Below are positions 36,161-44,723 of a stretch of DNA of 44,989 nt, piece after piece. The notes under the pieces are model-generated. The model was not told where the DNA came from. It did no database searches and worked only from the letters and a program-made list of their open reading frames with translations. Numbering within the stretch: the first letter of the stretch is position 1; each line of letters begins with the position of its first letter. Made by a program: the position numbers and the translations under genes. Source of the DNA: a virus; the IMG/VR virus record IMGVR_UViG_3300032180_000132, positions 1 through 44,989 of that record; one strand, given 5' to 3'.

Positions 36161-36967
36161 TTATTGACCTTCTCCCAAAATCTCTCTTCTGGAGTTCTCA
36201 TAGTTGTCATACCCATCCTCAGATGGGTCGTAGATTGTCAACGGTTGTGCAATCGTTATCGGCACTCGATAGGCTTTCAGGGGCTCTATCAACTCGACCT
36301 GATGCTGTGACAGGTAGAAGCTCTTGGGGTAGGCCCACTGCGCTCGCCAGCCCTTGTTGCCACGGACGTAGCGGCCCCAACCGTAGACCTCACCAATGAT
36401 GCACGAATCGTCGTTGGGGGTTGAGTACTCCCTGCCACCATCTAGGGCATAGATTCCACAGGTACAGTTGTCATTAGGAGGTTTCTTACATCCCCTGGCT
36501 CTAATAGGGTCACACTGGGCCATAAGTGGTATCAGGTAGGGCCAGTAGTCCTCAATATTGATCGACGACAGAATCACCTTGCCATTATGCCGTCCCTTCT
36601 CGTCCTTGAGCTTGATGACATGCCACCATCTCCAGCCGACCAGTGGCTCGGTCAGGTTGACCTCGTAATCCTCTTCGGCTGGGGCTGGTTCTGGATCGGC
36701 TACGTCCGTGAAGGATGCGTGGGCACTGATCCACCCTAGTCCGTGTAGGATCTTTAGATTCACATAGTTAGTAGGCAGCCACAGGTCACCGTAATAGGTC
36801 ATATCACTCATCATCAGATCAAACTGTGACGGCATAGGGATGAGGCTGCTATTGTCCTCAGTCAGCAGGATGGACCTGGCCTGAGAGAGTCCAAGCGCTA
36901 CCTCTACCGGATCAGCGTCAGTCCTAGCATAGGTCTCTAGCAACCCCTTCAGTATCACCGGGTCCAT
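36161..36967 (-). CDS. Uncharacterised protein with CxCGIYA and GWRAQWAYP motifs
   Basis: A 268-residue protein whose ATG shares one base with the polymerase stop. Aromatic and Cys-rich core: GWRWWHVIKL (about 111-120), CDPIRARGCKKPP, NCTCGIYAL, GEVYGWGRYVRGNKGWRAQW then AYPKSFYL. From memory this 'W..W.v ... C.CGIYA ... G.V.GWG.v..h..GwRA..AyP' pattern occurs in small uncharacterised phage and actinobacterial proteins. The Cys could bind metal. Downstream of the polymerase, so possibly replication-linked; no further evidence. Confidence 0.6.
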   Translation of the reverse strand: MDPVILKGLLETYARTDADPVEVALGLSQARSILLTEDNSSLIPMPSQFDLMMSDMTYYGDLWLPTNYVNLKILHGLGWISAHASFTDVADPEPAPAEEDYEVNLTEPLVGWRWWHVIKLKDEKGRHNGKVILSSINIEDYWPYLIPLMAQCDPIRARGCKKPPNDNCTCGIYALDGGREYSTPNDDSCIIGEVYGWGRYVRGNKGWRAQWAYPKSFYLSQHQVELIEPLKAYRVPITIAQPLTIYDPSEDGYDNYENSRREILGEGQ

Positions 36968-39732
36968 TAAGCAGCCTCCTCCACAACCTGCATCTCCCTC
37001 ATACCTGCTGCATTAGTCTCAGCATCATACCTACCGAAGTTCTGCCCACAAGAGGTCTCAGCACCGATCGACAGCAGCGAGCCATCTTTCATCGGTAGCT
37101 CGGGTATCGGGCGGGTCATCTCGACGTGTAGCGCGGTAGCAGCATACTCCACATCCCGCTCGGGTACAACCATCATGATGCTGTCGTGGACAACCAATCT
37201 GAGGTAATCGAGCAGCCGGTCGTACCCCTCAACCAGTCGCAGTACCACCTCAGTCTGGATAGCACTCGCGTCACTCTGAGGCACGAACGCCACTGCTCTC
37301 TTGGCGTCATCGTCGAGCACGTCCATCTTCTTCTTGTTGTCCCACTTGAATACACTATAGAAGTAGTGCTTGTATTGGAAGTGGTTGAGCAGATGCCGCT
37401 TCTCAGCAGCCATCATCATTTTGACGTGCTGCCAAGTCCGTACCTCTTTACCTGGCTCGGTTGAATAGATGAAGTCCTGAAGCTGCTTAGCGTGGGCTAC
37501 GTCACGGAACTCGTTTGGATACTCTTCCCATATCTTCTCAGGAGTGCCCATGTAGTTGCTGAGGTGACCGACTCGCTTCAGGACCTCGTAATCGAGAGGA
37601 TAGTCCCTCTTAGCCTTCTTACATAGCTTCCTTAGTTCGTCGAAGGGCATGTCGAAGGGGAGGAACTGGCCATGATAGGCTAGGGTAGTCCAGCCATGGA
37701 GCCCAGCCTTGGCCAGCTTGATGTATCGCTCGCTGCCAGCATCATACCCCACCAGCACTGCCTCTATCGCCGAGGCGTCACTGCTGACAATGTAGTGCCC
37801 TGGCGGGGCGATGATCATCTTGCAGAACTCGTCGGCCAGGTCTGAGCGCTTGGGGATGACCTGAAGGTTGTAGTTCCGCATAGACTTGCGAAGGGTAGAG
37901 GGATGGTATCCGATAGTGTAGTGTACCTTTCCCTCAGCATCAAGAGTCCAGTTGTAGCCTGTGATCAGCTTGGTCCTCTTGCGATGCTCCAAGATGTCCA
38001 GGAATATCCTGTGCTTCTTGGCGAACCGCCTGAGGTACTTGGCCTCGGTGGTCTCAGCATCATCATCACCTTCAGCGGCACCCTTCTTCCGAGGTGGCTT
38101 CAGATTGAGAGCATACATGAGGTCTACGACCTGATCACTCGACTCAGGATTGAAAGGTAGCACTTTCATGTACTTATAAGGGTTCTTGAGGTCATTAATC
38201 CGCTTACGAGCAGCCTTGTACTCCTTCTCGGTGACAGTGTTCCTGGCCGCCACGACCATGGCCATGGCAGCCTTGTAATCCATCTCGGGGGCACTCACAC
38301 GGCTGTCGCGCTCGATCTCGGTCACCCCGGTCATGTCCTTGGGGGGCTTCTTCCAGCGAGCAATGGGCTTCACATTAGGGGGGACTGTTGACTGTAAGCG
38401 GGCGTCGAGGTCATCGAGGTCCTTGCCGATTGTCCCCATGAAGCCCTCGTACACCTCACCCTTAACGTACCTGCCCCGCTGCTGCCGGTCGATCAGCACC
38501 CCTTCGTGGCCCATCCTGACATATATACGGTCAGCATCAACACAGTGTCTAAGGAACCTGTCTAGCCTGCCTTCTTGCCTAAGAGCCTGGATAGCACCCG
38601 TCGTACACAGCCTGCCGATGACTTGGTCACAGGCGTTGTAGAAGGGCTGATTGATCCCTGATAGATGCTTCCAAGGGGGTCCTGAATAATAAAATGGAGC
38701 GACAAACCCAAGCCCCTTCAACAGGTCTGACTGTAAGAAGTGCCACGCCCACATGCCACTAAGTACCCGTCCGGGAATGTCAATGCTAGCTGCTCTAAGT
38801 CGTCGGGAGTCAAAATGATTGTCTGCCCATTCCGCAAATGTGTGAGCATGATTGATTGCCTCCTGGAGGATGGCTGTGTAGGGCTCTCGGAAGGGGAAAC
38901 TGATCCCCTCATTGTCGCAGCAGGACCATCCGGCTCTAGTGATTTCATAGCTCAGCCCAGCCTCCTCCAGGTCCTCCTCATCCACCTTGTCACTCTCGGG
39001 TGTCTCAATATCCACCAGCAGTAGGTCAAACCGACCACCATGACGAACCAGATGATCAGCGAGATATCGACGAGCCTCATCTGGGCTGGGATCAGTAACC
39101 AGCTTAAGGGGAGTAGGTCGATATGTTCCACTGGCGATCTCCTGGGCTCGACGCAGCGAGAATAACAAGCTGGGGCAGAACTTGTGATGGTTCTGCATTA
39201 AGTATGACGGATGGAAGCTAGCTATGGTGGGAATGCCCCATGGCCCCTCATGTACATAGCCGTGGCGCTGCTCCAGGGTGGTCTTAGGTGGGGTATTGAG
39301 CAGCCTCTTCATGGCCACCTTGCCCAGAGCTACTAGTACCTTGGGTCGCCGCTGCTCGATTAGCTCATCGAGATATGGAGCACAGTGATTGAGGGCTCGC
39401 TGGGACTCGGGATATCGCTCGGGGTGGTCGGTCCAGCCCAGATGAGGTGGCTGGCACCACATCGAATTGGCAATGGTCAACGTGGGACGGTCAATCCCCA
39501 GTCGCCTCAGGACCTTCTCGTTTAGGTACCACCCGGCTGACCCAGCGAATACCTTCCCAGCTAGAATCTCTTGCTTCCACGGCGAGTCCCCTACAATCAT
39601 GATGCCCGATGATCCAGTACCATCAGGGAGTATCCTGCGGCGACCGTTATGGCGATTGGGACAGTCCCCACACAGGGGGCCTTCTGGGAAGGTCGGCAAG
39701 GGGGAGGAGGGGAACGCAGGTACAGTTGTCAT
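36967..39732 (-). CDS. polA: Family-4 uracil-DNA glycosylase / DNA polymerase A fusion
   Basis: A 921-residue replication polymerase with an extra N-terminal domain. Residues 20-200 are family-4 UDG-like: GDSPWKQEILAGKVFAGSAG (48-67), SFHPSYL (172-178) and the four [4Fe-4S] cysteines C21, C24, C93, C117. A 3'-5' exonuclease follows: DIET (241-244), NHFD (305-308), YNACD (365-369). Family A polymerase motifs: A DASAIEAVL (652-660), B-like KRVGHLSNYMG (719-729) where the canonical Lys is absent, and C VHDSIMM (848-854), Ser in place of the usual Glu. A similar UDG-polymerase arrangement is known in SPO1. Upstream gene gap 25 bases. Confidence 0.88.
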   Translation of the reverse strand: MTTVPAFPSSPLPTFPEGPLCGDCPNRHNGRRRILPDGTGSSGIMIVGDSPWKQEILAGKVFAGSAGWYLNEKVLRRLGIDRPTLTIANSMWCQPPHLGWTDHPERYPESQRALNHCAPYLDELIEQRRPKVLVALGKVAMKRLLNTPPKTTLEQRHGYVHEGPWGIPTIASFHPSYLMQNHHKFCPSLLFSLRRAQEIASGTYRPTPLKLVTDPSPDEARRYLADHLVRHGGRFDLLLVDIETPESDKVDEEDLEEAGLSYEITRAGWSCCDNEGISFPFREPYTAILQEAINHAHTFAEWADNHFDSRRLRAASIDIPGRVLSGMWAWHFLQSDLLKGLGFVAPFYYSGPPWKHLSGINQPFYNACDQVIGRLCTTGAIQALRQEGRLDRFLRHCVDADRIYVRMGHEGVLIDRQQRGRYVKGEVYEGFMGTIGKDLDDLDARLQSTVPPNVKPIARWKKPPKDMTGVTEIERDSRVSAPEMDYKAAMAMVVAARNTVTEKEYKAARKRINDLKNPYKYMKVLPFNPESSDQVVDLMYALNLKPPRKKGAAEGDDDAETTEAKYLRRFAKKHRIFLDILEHRKRTKLITGYNWTLDAEGKVHYTIGYHPSTLRKSMRNYNLQVIPKRSDLADEFCKMIIAPPGHYIVSSDASAIEAVLVGYDAGSERYIKLAKAGLHGWTTLAYHGQFLPFDMPFDELRKLCKKAKRDYPLDYEVLKRVGHLSNYMGTPEKIWEEYPNEFRDVAHAKQLQDFIYSTEPGKEVRTWQHVKMMMAAEKRHLLNHFQYKHYFYSVFKWDNKKKMDVLDDDAKRAVAFVPQSDASAIQTEVVLRLVEGYDRLLDYLRLVVHDSIMMVVPERDVEYAATALHVEMTRPIPELPMKDGSLLSIGAETSCGQNFGRYDAETNAAGMREMQVVEEAA

Positions 39733-40360: not shown

Positions 40361-40390
40361 ATTATTAAGTACAACCTGGTGATCTGTCAA
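40361..40390 (-). promoter_or_regulatory. Strong promoter-like site for the polymerase operon
   Basis: TTGACA (40390-40385) and AATAAT (40366-40361), spacer 18, on the - strand: 6 of 6 and 5 of 6. Start of transcription near 40354, with AGGAGGG and ATG 40332 following. The -35 overlaps the last codons of the HTH gene upstream. Confidence 0.6.
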
Positions 40391-40578
40391 GGCCTGGTTT
40401 CCACCTTATGAGCGTCGAGGTATGCTTCTATGTCCTTGCGACGATAACGAACCAGCTTCCCGATCTTGAGGAATCTTGGTCCCTGTCGCTTCCTACGAGC
40501 CCGTCGAAGGTATGGAATGGTGAATCCATACTCTTGTTCTACCTCACGCTCATTCAGGACAAGTCTGTCAATGTTCAT
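40387..40578 (-). CDS. Excisionase/AlpA-like helix-turn-helix protein
   Basis: A 63-residue protein starting ATG 40578 behind AAAGG. LNEREVEQEYGFTIPYLRRA then FLKIGKLVRYRRKDIEAYLD is the standard MerR/excisionase-family winged helix-turn-helix (HTH_17 type). No integrase is visible in the window, so a transcriptional or replication-control role is as likely as excision. Upstream is the interrupted tRNA region. Confidence 0.75.
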   Translation of the reverse strand: MNIDRLVLNEREVEQEYGFTIPYLRRARRKRQGPRFLKIGKLVRYRRKDIEAYLDAHKVETRP

Positions 40579-40593
40579 GGTTGCCTTTAGAGG

Positions 40594-40713
40594 TCGGGCA
40601 CCGGCCCCCCAGGTGGCTGACAACTGAGGCCTGATTGCGAGAGCCAATGCACGGTATGGGTGTTTAGCTCTCTAAGGCCAGTGCTAATCAGTTTACCAGA
40701 GAGTGGTGCCCGA
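40594..40713 (-). repeat. 9-bp inverted repeat enclosing 102 bases
   Basis: TCGGGCACC (40594-40602 on the + strand) is the exact reverse complement of GGTGCCCGA (40705-40713). If transcribed it would close a 120-base RNA with smaller internal complementary stretches (AGAGAG/CTCTCT). It lies just downstream of the tRNA on the - strand. A structured RNA or protein-binding dyad is possible; chance cannot be excluded. Confidence 0.3.
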
Positions 40714-40734
40714 TTGTGCGCGATATGCTGCCAC

Positions 40735-40860
40735 TGATGAAGGGCAGGACTCGAACCTGCAACCTCGTGGTCCGGTGCGGCTACAACCGGCATACATTTG
40801 CCCCGCCGGAAGCAAGAACGCCCGGTGCCACGCGCTCTATCCAATTGAGCTACCCTCATC
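40735..40860 (-). tRNA. tRNA-Arg(CCG)-like gene interrupted in the anticodon loop
   Basis: On the - strand a complete cloverleaf is recognisable: acceptor GATGAGG paired with CTTCATC, D arm GCTC...GAGC, anticodon stem CGTGG/CCACG, T arm GCAGG-TTCGAGT-CCTGC, discriminator A, no encoded CCA. The gene spans 126 bases because 50 bases are inserted in the anticodon loop. A 7-bp direct repeat GCACCGG flanks the insert (offset 50); removing one copy plus the spacer gives a 76-base tRNA with loop CACCGGA, anticodon CCG, but A instead of U at position 33. The insert has a small hairpin GGCA-AATGTA-TGCC. Splicing, pseudogene or attachment-site explanations remain open. Confidence 0.6.
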
Positions 40861-40877
40861 AGCAGCAACCTCGATGG

Positions 40878-40940
40878 CAGCAGCAGCCTGAGAAGGTGAC
40901 TCCTCTTCTCCTCACCCACAGCATGGGCAGGCTGCTGCTG
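40878..40940. repeat. 13-bp perfect inverted repeat (hairpin)
   Basis: CAGCAGCAGCCTG at 40878-40890 is the reverse complement of CAGGCTGCTGCTG at 40928-40940; loop 37 bases. GC-rich and stable, 18 bases from the tRNA 5' end. There is no U-run on either side, so a simple intrinsic terminator is unlikely; RNA processing or origin structure is possible. Confidence 0.5.
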
Positions 40941-41092
40941 CTGAAACTTAGAGGAAAGGAGGTTAAGCCGCAACCCCCGCTGACCAACCGATTTGCCTCC
41001 GGGGCCGTTGACAGAGTTAAGTTTCTATCCCGGACTTCGGTGGGCCGTTGCCCCACTTGGCGTCTGCCGATAGTCGATTGATCAACTTCCAC

Positions 41093-41146
41093 GGGATTAC
41101 CCATGCATTCCACGCGGGATTACCCATGCACGGGATTACCCCATGG
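41093..41146. repeat. Three direct repeats of GGGATTACCCATG
   Basis: Copies at 41093-41107 (GGGATTACCCATGCA), 41116-41130 (identical) and 41132-41146 (GGGATTACCCCATGG), so spacings of 23 and 16 bases. Each unit has a partial dyad GGG-ATTA-CCC. The cluster lies upstream of the tRNA on the - strand. Iterons of a replication origin or an operator array are the natural hypotheses. Confidence 0.6.
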
Positions 41147-41236: not shown

Positions 41237-41521
41237 TCAATCTGCATACCTGCGATTGCCATAATGTCGCATCCTCAGGGCATCCTCGAACGCATCCCGC
41301 AGCTTCTCATCGGGAGCAGTTTCGATGTTCTCCATGAGCCAGAACATTATCGTTCTGGCCGCGGTGATGTCCTGAGCGACGAGGGTGAAGGTCTGCTGGC
41401 CCCTGGAACGAGCTTTGACAAAGCATACCTCATCTTTGGTAGGCAGGGGGCCATCCTCAATCCTTCTCAGTCCCTGAGCCATCGCCTCCAGACTCATCAT
41501 CTCATCTGGTGATGGACTCAT
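41237..41521 (-). CDS. Uncharacterised small protein
   Basis: A 94-residue protein overlapping the next upstream gene's stop by 4 bases (ATGA). Pattern: a helical Met-rich N terminus (DEMMSLEAMAQGLRRIEDG), a beta-hairpin-like CFVKARSRGQQTFTLVAQD, then helices TAARTIMFWLMENIETAPD and KLRDAFEDALRMR. This is a compact alpha/beta fold. No known function; linked to the replication operon. Confidence 0.65.
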   Translation of the reverse strand: MSPSPDEMMSLEAMAQGLRRIEDGPLPTKDEVCFVKARSRGQQTFTLVAQDITAARTIMFWLMENIETAPDEKLRDAFEDALRMRHYGNRRYAD

Positions 41522-42213
41522 GCCGCAGCCCCCGCCGAGATGGCATGGACCCGGATGACCTTCTCGCGCCCGTACTGCTTCTGGTCGTTGGGATTCTTGG
41601 GGTTCGATACCATGGGATCGAAGCTGCCGTCAGCCGACCGGGGCCACTTGATCTCCCCTCGCTTGACCCTGGCCACAGTGCTGACCCTGGTCTCAGTACT
41701 CTTGAAGTAGGTCTCCCAGGCTATCTCACCCTTGAGCGTGACTTGCCCGTTGACCTTCCGAACCTCGTCACGAATGGCGGCTGGAGTCATGGCACCGGAG
41801 ATGCGGATGCCTATCGACCTGAGTAGCTCAGCGCCGAACGATATCTGCATGTTGTCGTTCTTGAAGAAGCTGAACTTCTGGAAGCGGATAACTGGCAACT
41901 CGCTCCCTGGCTCGGGTGTGTAGGGATTGCCGTCCTTGTCACCGATGACCTGGAACTCCGGCTGGATGACGAGGAAGGACTTCTTGACCTGCTCTCCATT
42001 GACCATGAGCGGCTTACCCTTCTCGGGGCCATTGTCATGCTTCAATCCAACATCCTGCTTATCGAACCAGTTGGTCTCGGACTCGGGCATCCTGAACAGC
42101 AGGGTATAGGTACCCGGTGTGACTTGCGGAGGGAAGCTCCCGGATTCAGGAGCATCCCAGTCTACGGCTGGTGTTGCTTCTTCACTTAGGTTAAGCTCTG
42201 ACAGATCAGGCAT
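41518..42213 (-). CDS. Putative ssDNA-binding-type replication protein
   Basis: A 231-residue protein with AAGGAGA nine bases before ATG 42213. The core VTPGTYTLLFRMPESETN, VIQPEFQVIGDKDGNPYTP, LPVIRFQKFSFFKND, VNGQVTLKGEIAWETYF has the beta-rich style of phage OB-fold or single-strand binding proteins, with acidic N terminus and a basic loop (RVKRGEIKWPR). Position between an ATPase and the polymerase operon supports a replication role. No defining motif; it could instead be a recombination mediator. Confidence 0.35.
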   Translation of the reverse strand: MPDLSELNLSEEATPAVDWDAPESGSFPPQVTPGTYTLLFRMPESETNWFDKQDVGLKHDNGPEKGKPLMVNGEQVKKSFLVIQPEFQVIGDKDGNPYTPEPGSELPVIRFQKFSFFKNDNMQISFGAELLRSIGIRISGAMTPAAIRDEVRKVNGQVTLKGEIAWETYFKSTETRVSTVARVKRGEIKWPRSADGSFDPMVSNPKNPNDQKQYGREKVIRVHAISAGAAA

Positions 42214-42228
42214 TGCTATAGTTCTCCT

Positions 42229-43386
42229 TTATTGTGGACGTTTTATGGATATCTTGGGTGGAGTGAATGCTACCTTACCTGGCTGCGGGGTCGCTGGGGC
42301 CTGTGTTAGTGATACAGTTCCTGGTACACTCATGACCTCAGATATCTTGACTGGCTCCGGTGCTGGTGGAGGACTGGTGACATGCTGGGCCCCGATCTCA
42401 GCTAGCTTGTCAGTCTCCCGAAAGCCAGCTACCTGTACGCGCTGTTTCTTCTCCCGAATGATGGCGTCCATCCTCTCAGTCATGACATCGAGTCGACGAT
42501 AGAGATCAGCCATATCAGGAGGGTCCAGATAGTTAGGTAGTTCAGAAGCGAACTGAAAGGGGGCTCGCGTGCCACAAGGAAATGGTATATTTGTAAGAGG
42601 GTCAGCATGAGTACGAAGATACATAACAGGCCTTTCCACGATATCAACCTGCTTGGTCTCGGCATTAGGCTTCCTCTCAACTAGTTGCTCGATATGGACG
42701 CAGTTACCGAACCACTGAGGGGCCTTGCCGATGGACTTCTTACCAGCAATGGCAGGACCATAGGTAGGTGCTCGGCTACCCTCCTCTTCACCACGGCCTT
42801 CTAGGGCTGTCCATAGCACCTTCTCACAAGGTAGCATGTGGCTCTTTATCACGAAGTCATATAGCTGGTCCTGGACATTGCCATAGTAGGATTGGTTGCC
42901 ACCCGAGTAGCTGATGGTCTTGCTAGATCGCTTGCCGTCAACCTCCACGTCGACAGCCTGTTCAGCATAGGTATAGGAGGGGTCCTGGCTCAAGTGAGCC
43001 TTGTCAGCCTTCAGTTGTCGCAGGAAGCTATCTCCACCACTTGTCAGGCCCTCGACGGCTGTGAAGCCGATATCCTCCCAGACTGCTGCTGAGGGTGGGA
43101 TGAGCGGCGATAGTGGGTCATCGGGCTCCTTGGGCCACCATCCCTGACAGGCCAGGTCAATCGTCGAGATGGTGAACTTCGGTCGAGCTATTGGGAACCA
43201 GGGGACCACTATCCCCTCGTTGACCAGCGATATGATGGGGTCATACCCCCCACCATCGAGGGTGATGAGCCTGGTGCGCTTGTGGTACTTCTCATAGATG
43301 TAGAGCGCTATAAGGCCGACGTTAGAGGTCTTGCGGGTCTTGCTGGCACTGTATATGAGGTCGGCCTTGGGCTTAATATGTAGCAT
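42229..43386 (-). CDS. RecA/AAA-type phage ATPase with degenerate P-loop
   Basis: A 385-residue protein. IYSASKTRKTSNVG (11-24) occupies the Walker A place, but the usual Gly before Lys19-Thr20 is Arg18 and the first Gly is Ser. Later LITLDGGGY, VLWTALEGRGEEEG and TYGPAIAGKKSIGKAPQWFG fit, from memory, the AAA_24/RecA-like phage nucleotide-binding family. The last 90 residues are Pro-rich and disordered. It probably acts with the neighbouring ssDNA-binding-type protein in recombination or replication. Stop 15 bases before the next gene. Confidence 0.55.
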   Translation of the reverse strand: MLHIKPKADLIYSASKTRKTSNVGLIALYIYEKYHKRTRLITLDGGGYDPIISLVNEGIVVPWFPIARPKFTISTIDLACQGWWPKEPDDPLSPLIPPSAAVWEDIGFTAVEGLTSGGDSFLRQLKADKAHLSQDPSYTYAEQAVDVEVDGKRSSKTISYSGGNQSYYGNVQDQLYDFVIKSHMLPCEKVLWTALEGRGEEEGSRAPTYGPAIAGKKSIGKAPQWFGNCVHIEQLVERKPNAETKQVDIVERPVMYLRTHADPLTNIPFPCGTRAPFQFASELPNYLDPPDMADLYRRLDVMTERMDAIIREKKQRVQVAGFRETDKLAEIGAQHVTSPPPAPEPVKISEVMSVPGTVSLTQAPATPQPGKVAFTPPKISIKRPQ

Positions 43387-44100: not shown

Positions 44101-44292
44101 CTAGTGTATGATTTCCGGGACAAGTTCTAGCCAGGTCCCTGATATGATAACTATCAACCCGACCATGTGATCCTTGCCTTGCAGGACGACCATTCCAGGT
44201 GCTCCTGGGACCATCTCTATGGATGTCACATCATTGAACTCTACCAGGACCTTGACTCCATCAGGGGTGTAGGCCTTCATTTGATACTTCAT
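44101..44292 (-). CDS. Uncharacterised small beta protein
   Basis: A 63-residue protein overlapping the NADAR gene stop by 4 bases. Two strand-rich halves: MKYQMKAYTPDGVKVLVEFN and MVVLQGKDHMVGLIVIISGT. It has the layout of small OB or SH3-like folds but no diagnostic residues. Unknown. Confidence 0.6.
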   Translation of the reverse strand: MKYQMKAYTPDGVKVLVEFNDVTSIEMVPGAPGMVVLQGKDHMVGLIVIISGTWLELVPEIIH

Positions 44293-44723
44293 CCTCGTGC
44301 CTCCTTGCGAACCTGCATAAGAATCTTACCAAGATGGTTGAGCCCTGCCCCTGCACACTCAGGCCTGCCACAGTTACAATCCCCCCAGAAGTTGTCATGC
44401 CAATAGTTGCCCTCACACAGGTCCTCATCTCCAGTATCCAGCAGAAACTCTCTGAGGGTAGGTATGGAGAACTTCTGGCGCACTAGCATTGTCATGAGCG
44501 GCAGAGTCTTAGTTCTCCAGTCGGGGCCCCCTACCCCATGCCCCTTCTTCTTGGCACCGCCAGCACTCATGCTGAGAGATGTAAACTGCTCTCGCTCCTC
44601 AGGGGGGAACTTGGCTGCCTGATAGGCATGTTCCACTGACGGGTAGAGTATGTTCTCATGGATCACCGGGCTGCCAAAGAAATTGGACAGAAACGTATAC
44701 CTACCCCTGAAACTGTTGATCAT
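44289..44723 (-). CDS. NADAR (YbiA/DUF1768) family protein
   Basis: A 144-residue protein with the family signature: FRGRYTFLSNFFGSPV (5-20), YPSVEHAYQAAKF (27-39), MSAGGAKKKG (52-61), W...T, LLDTGDEDLCEGNYWHDNFWG and GLNHLGKILMQVR. NADAR proteins cleave N-glycosidic bonds of ADP-ribose or riboflavin intermediates and some reverse ADP-ribosylation of DNA or other targets. In a phage a counter-defence role against ADP-ribosylating or NAD-derived defences is plausible. Odd feature: a Cys cluster insert CNCGRPECAG (115-124) that may bind metal. Start ATG 44723, no strong ribosome binding site checked. Confidence 0.85.
   Translation of the reverse strand: MINSFRGRYTFLSNFFGSPVIHENILYPSVEHAYQAAKFPPEEREQFTSLSMSAGGAKKKGHGVGGPDWRTKTLPLMTMLVRQKFSIPTLREFLLDTGDEDLCEGNYWHDNFWGDCNCGRPECAGAGLNHLGKILMQVRKEARG

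Follow-up and report, generated by a model that had tools for sequence, protein, structure and literature searches.

A tRNA-like element with a predicted closed anticodon arm in an uncultured phage, and families of small inserts in phage tRNAs

Genomic context of the element

The window (the whole stretch of DNA that we analysed: 44,989 nt, positions 1 to 44,989 of IMG/VR virus record IMGVR_UViG_3300032180_000132) belongs to an uncultured phage, and the tRNA-like element described here is known from this single metagenomic contig. The element and its neighbours are listed in Table 1. It is found between polymerase-linked genes conserved in comparison loci L122-L124 and a block consisting of the HTH gene and the UDG-polymerase gene; as it is on the strand of this leftward replication operon, it is presumably co-transcribed with it.

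The UDG-polymerase has relatives at 40-49% identity in L122-L125, and isolates give weak partial tblastn matches only. The putative SSB-like gene is conserved together with the polymerase in L122-L124; PHROGs and Pfam searches gave no match for the P-loop-like gene, and a search by the upstream 231-aa protein found no relatives. The preliminary description had proposed a comparison of related phages for versions with and without the insert: no comparable tRNA was found upstream of polA in L122-L125, so the element has been gained or lost. Among the window ORFs scanned (a set that leaves out some small ORFs) there is no integrase by PHROGs or Pfam, and no ligase or splicing endonuclease by Pfam.

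Two further observations concern this neighbourhood. Upstream of the element, the 13-nt sequence CACGGGATTACCC occurs in three iteron-like copies (41090-41141, with 16-23-nt spacing). A NADAR-domain protein (PF08719; this family is tied to NAD/ADP-ribose biology) is encoded at 44289-44723.

Table 1. Positions in the window of the tRNA-like element, its parts and the neighbouring features
Feature	Position	Strand	Basis
UDG-DNA polymerase A fusion, UDG domain N-terminal	36967..39732	-	Pfam UDG and DNA_pol_A
Downstream gene, HTH / excisionase-like	40387..40647	-	phrog_66, E 1.5e-6; HTH_17 below cut-off
Predicted hairpin downstream, GGCCTTAGAGAGC.../GGCTCTCGCAATCAGGCC, ends approximate	40624..40680	-	Fold
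3' flank extending acceptor helix (first base C73), CAGTGGCAGC	40727..40736	-	10 contiguous extra pairs
tRNA-like element, G-1 through base after C73	40735..40860	-	ARAGORN -i; Rfam tRNA 47.8 bits
Acceptor helix, 3' strand CCTTCATC, no CCA after it	40736..40743	-	Sequence reading, Rfam
T arm, GCAGG-TTCGAGT-CCTGC	40744..40760	-	Sequence reading, ARAGORN, Rfam
Anticodon stem, 3' strand CCACG	40766..40770	-	Fold, ARAGORN
57-nt sequence in place of 7-nt anticodon loop; rod CCGGGCG/CGC-A-CCGG, UUGC/GUAG, CCGGC/GCCGG	40771..40827	-	Predicted fold
Direct repeat GCACCGG, copy 2	40772..40778	-	Sequence reading
Direct repeat GCACCGG, copy 1	40822..40828	-	Sequence reading; boundary ambiguity 7 nt
Anticodon stem, 5' strand CGTGG	40828..40832	-	Paired with CCACG 40766-40770
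D arm, GCTC-AATTGGATA-GAGC, with G18G19	40834..40850	-	Sequence reading, ARAGORN, Rfam
Acceptor helix, 5' strand, G-1 to nt 7 (GATGAGGG)	40853..40860	-	Paired with 40736-40743
5' flank extending acceptor helix (first base G-1), GTTGCTGCTG	40860..40869	-	10 contiguous extra pairs
Hairpin immediately upstream, 14-bp perfect arms GCAGCAGCAGCCTG/CAGGCTGCTGCTGC, 37 nt between	40877..40941	-	Repeat and fold search
Terminator-like hairpin, then TTTCCT	40958..40978	-	Consensus match only
Upstream gene, SSB-like by position (putative)	41518..42213	-	tblastn 30-34% identity, L122-L124
Upstream gene, P-loop-like, Sak4-type by inspection only	42229..43386	-	tblastn 30-45% to L122-L124

Cloverleaf, insert and acceptor helix

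ARAGORN makes no call for the element when run without introns; in intron mode it returns c[40735,40860], a tRNA-Arg(ccg) with a 50-nt insert and the same boundaries as the element. Rfam RF00005 matches a local 146-base stretch with 47.8 bits (E 9e-10; gathering 29) and with every arm paired. Whole-window Rfam scans did not return it, evidently because of speed filters, and standard annotation (ARAGORN without introns and whole-window Rfam, both empty) thus overlooks the element. By direct sequence reading, the acceptor has 7 bp plus G-1:C73, the D stem 4 of 4 pairs, and the anticodon and T stems 5 of 5 each; the variable loop is AGGTT. The cloverleaf at 40860-40735 is therefore real and no chance fold, and the preliminary description was right both about its intact, properly paired arms and about the 50 bases between the two halves of its anticodon stem. 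The element is the sole tRNA found in the 45-kb record, a count to be read with the observation that this element and the one in phage record L260 both escape a genome-wide tRNA search, whose filters can miss such genes.

The body of the element is Arg-like: phage-encoded tRNA-Arg genes, such as that of Phaeobacter phage MD18 (MT270409), share its D arm, T arm and body (94% match over 38% of the element), but have no insert, an ordinary acceptor and a decoding anticodon. The earlier identification as a tRNA-Arg gene holds for the body, whereas a decoding tRNA is unlikely (A33, prolonged acceptor).

The 57 nt that separate the halves of the anticodon stem correspond to 50 nt plus a 7-nt loop, CACCGGA. 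The 7-bp direct repeats GCACCGG reported before are present, and they allow eight equivalent junction registers; the product of the deletion has anticodon CCG and A33 in all eight, which bears out the earlier statement that it would lack U33. Boundary repeats of this length are unusual (0-3 nt in 192 of the 194 other split tRNAs that we collected; see below). The CCGG inside the repeat, however, is palindromic and can pair with the CCGG of the other copy; because it forms the helix at the rod base, four of the seven repeated bases do not call for a target-site duplication. The insert is predicted to fold as an extension of the anticodon stem with one rod on top, and the window's anticodon arm alone has a modest excess of stability over shuffled inserts (z -2.1; 14 out of 500 shuffles are equally stable), weaker still for the L260 rod (z -1.5).

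No second copy of the insert is present in the window, the comparison loci, or the phage and plasmid collections; blastn of the region against the phage collection and pattern searches of viral and genome contigs, for this insert or one of Arg type, did not find it either. This speaks against a mobile element, and together with the largely palindromic repeat it weakens the earlier suggestion of a mobile-element or recombination scar with target duplication. It also means that conservation of the window rod cannot be demonstrated, as no collection searched holds a homologue with the same insert.

A feature that we add to the earlier account is the prolonged acceptor helix: acceptor and flanks form 17 contiguous pairs (GUUGCUGCUGAUGAGGG/CCUUCAUCAGUGGCAGC), three of them G-U. 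At least 10 extra pairs arose in 13 out of 200,000 flank shuffles (P about 6.5e-5). Among 847 full-cloverleaf tRNAs and tRNA-like genes of the comparison loci, 845 have 0-6 extra pairs, and the two exceptions are the window (10 pairs) and L260 (nine); at least three extra pairs are found in nine of 726 ordinary tRNAs. Since three of the 17 pairs are G-U, selection at the RNA level fits better than a DNA palindrome.

Several known systems resemble the element in part. A group I intron has a P3-P8 ribozyme core and takes about 200 nt or more; the insert has 50 nt, and no Rfam intron family matches the window or the element, so that the insert is indeed too small for such an intron, as had been stated. 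Bacterial group I introns in tRNA anticodon loops likewise interrupt the tRNA there, but are far longer ribozymes (PMC3984707), and according to the same 2014 review every phage intron then known was in a protein gene, despite the many phage tRNA genes (PMC3984707). Archaeal and eukaryotic bulge-helix-bulge (BHB) introns are small inserts near the anticodon, as in the element (PMC4090602); the window has no 2-4-2 BHB of matching length, again in agreement with the preliminary description, and an archaeal-type tRNA intron is rejected. A hammerhead was considered as CUGAUGAG at the 5' end recalls its core, and rejected as inspection by eye did not show the remaining part of the core. The bacterial Y RNA YrlA consists of a tRNA-like module on a long helix of joined 5' and 3' ends, a design shared with the element; RF02553 scores 14.6 bits (cut-off 69) in a neighbouring stretch and does not match the element itself. 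Phage tRNAs can evade tRNA-targeting defences: specific phage tRNAs are reported to be expressed to evade retrons (PMC11555353). These genes, too, have a use outside routine decoding, and the element differs from them in having no anticodon loop. The open-access literature that we searched contained no small phage tRNA introns and no tRNA-like phage RNAs or small tRNA-gene insertions.

Small inserts in the tRNAs of other phages

Split tRNAs were collected by pattern searches: a pattern of tRNA D and T arms separated by 58-88 nt matched at least 120 viral contigs, a second D-arm variant also at least 120, and two further patterns 64 and 96. Filters for a paired acceptor and a paired T stem left 165 distinct split tRNAs at one stage and about 194 finally. 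In this survey, phage tRNAs with inserts of 30-60 nt formed two populations. Most of the split tRNAs come from tRNA-array phages (e.g. L118, L270 and L009, with 39, 27 and 13 tRNAs), whose inserts fall into conserved families; their removal restores a stem of 5 bp and, in most cases, a loop with U33. In the best register, that is, the one chosen to favour U33, this base is found in 69 of 83 split tRNAs with the family A motif, 23 of 25 in family A2 and 75 of 87 others.

Family A inserts (39-57 nt) are located after nt 28 or 29, within the 5' strand of the anticodon stem. They contain a hairpin followed by the motif ACAGCAA, and their 3' part completes the stem and provides a canonical loop, typically of the form CUNNNAA. 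Each of the six consensus pairs shows changes on both sides in an alignment of 49 examples, and the covariation score is 0.75, against 0.22 after shuffling and no more than 0.18 in slid controls. Members include L021, L030, L057, L075, L101, L104, L118, L127 (a Clostridia MAG contig with two adjacent copies) and L387. The isolated Vibrio phage D482 has four copies (OZ195769, 216131-218756), and the three that we checked are annotated tRNAs of 110-123 nt. A rough grouping, family A2 (L013, L026, L130, L139, L151, L156, L176, L218, L264 and L287), has 50-57-nt inserts at about the same junction, with another conserved hairpin and a 3' GGUUAC/GUUAUC.

Family B inserts follow position 36 (junction 36/37) in tRNAs with U33, and have an internal T-arm hairpin with a 7-nt T-loop; loci include L011:4245-4311, L034:3060-3131, L041:7038-7106, L044:3664-3737 and L147:837-903. 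The insert resembles a mini-tRNA: it has a T-arm and a helix that starts at the 5' junction and is followed by NCCA-like bases (ACCA in L147 and L034, UCCA in L011). This likeness suggests cutting by tRNA-processing enzymes. Two other RNAs were seen near family B split tRNAs: a ROOL RNA (RF03087, 311.7 bits) at L102:4179-4758, on a phage contig, and a permuted tmRNA (RF04321, 74.5 bits) at L044:828-1125, on a viral contig.

Multiple insert-bearing tRNAs, sometimes adjacent, are found in one genome (L101, L104, L118, L126, L127, L009, L013, L026 and D482), which suggests insert spread or a dedicated splicing activity. Judging from their sequences, the families are probably small introns, seemingly undescribed and of two or more independent kinds, that would be removed by splicing; none of the 194 phage split tRNAs has a BHB with matching excision. 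Phage tRNAs thus frequently carry small inserts in the anticodon arm. These inserts fall into conserved RNA families, of which one is also present in an isolated Vibrio phage, and they make phage tRNA splicing, and its enzyme, a directly testable question. The insert families, ahead of the window element, are the most surprising general result of this analysis.

The window insert belongs to neither insert family: it scores -0.6 bits with the family A model R1 (members score 32-48 bits) and is not among the matches of the family B motif search. The novel intervening sequence that the preliminary description offered as one option is therefore a good description of many other phage tRNAs, but the window insert does not match their families.

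Interpretation of the element and solitary tRNA-like genes

We give a probability of roughly 50% to the reading that the element is a non-decoding tRNA-mimic domain within the replication-operon transcript, rather than a pre-tRNA awaiting splicing. It has the cloverleaf stems of a decoding tRNA-Arg, but a 7-nt U33 loop is found neither directly nor after excision, and the 7-bp acceptor with unpaired leader and trailer is replaced by one with 10 further contiguous pairs. Cleavage by RNase P and the 3' processing enzymes depends on unpaired ends, and translation on an anticodon loop. Transcribed with the leftward replication operon, the RNA would fold into a tRNA-like L in which, by sequence and covariance model, the D and T arms, the elbow and the acceptor/T stack are retained, a predicted closed rod takes the place of the anticodon loop, and the 10-bp acceptor extension would deny the processing enzymes single-stranded ends. 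With unpaired ends and anticodon loop both missing, the RNA would not be released from the operon transcript but form a tRNA-shaped domain within it, with the upstream genes (41237-43386) on one side and the HTH/polymerase genes on the other.

The most economical, and most likely, role of such a domain would be that its nuclease-resistant tRNA-like fold punctuates or protects the polycistronic transcript; alternatively, it may bind a host tRNA-recognising protein. The decoy tRNA proposed earlier is possible only in a broad sense: the loop cut by anticodon nucleases is absent from the predicted folded RNA. If the element is a tRNA mimic, the tRNA fold serves phages beyond decoding, and phage tRNA counts are less informative on codon supply than assumed.

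It is rather unlikely that the element is instead the functionless relic of a tRNA-Arg(CCG) gene that was damaged when an insertion or slippage added 50 bp and duplicated 7 bp, with U33 changed to A as well. The expected loop of tRNA-Arg(CCG) is CUCCGGA, from which CACCGGA differs by U33A alone, and the long boundary repeat and the polymerase relatives that have no such tRNA upstream of polA also agree with damage. However, every stem and elbow base is intact, which argues against a decaying pseudogene; a prolonged acceptor is unexpected in a former decoding tRNA, no second insert copy exists in the collections searched, and the CCGG of the repeat is accounted for by the palindromic helix.

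We regard it as improbable that the 50 nt are a small intron, excised before the halves are joined into tRNA-Arg(CCG), in the way that is likely for the inserts of the array phages. It is common for phage tRNAs to have small inserts that restore a canonical anticodon arm, and the 36/37 junction of other inserts falls inside the ambiguous junction range of the window; but the spliced product would carry A33, the acceptor is prolonged, the insert has neither a family A score, a family B T-loop arm nor a BHB of fitting length, and the Pfam scan described above gave no ligase or splicing endonuclease. A DNA-level element (an attachment site or part of a replication origin, with palindromes that merely look RNA-like) is very improbable: tRNA genes are usual att sites, an HTH/excisionase-like ORF is adjacent, and the intergenic region has the three 13-nt repeats and several hairpins, but that ORF is all that accompanies the attachment-like site considered earlier, as the ORFs scanned include no integrase, the acceptor has three G-U pairs, which matter to RNA alone, and the T-loop and D-loop bases are those of a tRNA.

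The second population of our survey bears on the tRNA mimic. It consists of a few phages of 39-68 kb, that of the window among them, each with one solitary tRNA-like gene, usually without U33: in L260, L244 and L110 (phage records of 39-48 kb) this gene is the sole tRNA found, and L380 (68 kb) has one Rfam tRNA match. The predicted anticodon arm is branched in L380 and a closed, GC-rich rod in the other four (the window, L260, L110 and L244); L244, L110 and L380 were chosen as GC-rich rods, so that only their acceptors and solitary status are independent observations. The options at position 33 are A only (window and L380), C only (L260) and A or C (L110), with U possible in L244. The acceptor has three extra pairs in L110 and in L244, and none in L380.

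If a class is defined by a sole tRNA found, no U33 option, an extended anticodon arm and an acceptor prolonged by at least three pairs, the window, L260 and L110 (the last with exactly three pairs) have all of these features; L244, with its possible U33, and L380, without prolongation, have some. The L244 and L260 elements are found among recombination/replication genes (PD-(D/E)XK, AAA_24, SNF2, DUF2800, Enc34 SSB and VapE): that of L244 adjoins PD-(D/E)XK, AAA_24 and SNF2 helicase genes, and that of L260, which has a U-run at its end, fills the gap from the stop codon of one gene to the beginning of a DUF2800 gene. No gene similarity was detected between the window and L260. We tentatively propose, as a possibility short of an even chance, a class of solitary non-decoding tRNA mimics in the replication modules of otherwise tRNA-less 40-50-kb phages, with a role outside translation. 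Its members would have a closed rod in place of the anticodon loop and an acceptor stem joined to a flanking helix, and might serve to punctuate transcripts, to stabilise RNA or to capture a host protein that binds or cuts tRNAs.

Two minor likenesses were also seen. The rods of the window and L244 look alike by eye (CCGGC...TATGC...CCGG), which we do not claim as homology. Perfect 13-14-bp hairpins with 37-42 nt between the arms are found near the elements of the window (40877-40941), L244 (L244:5899-5963) and L110 (L110:5369-5436), and the latter two both start with GGGAG.
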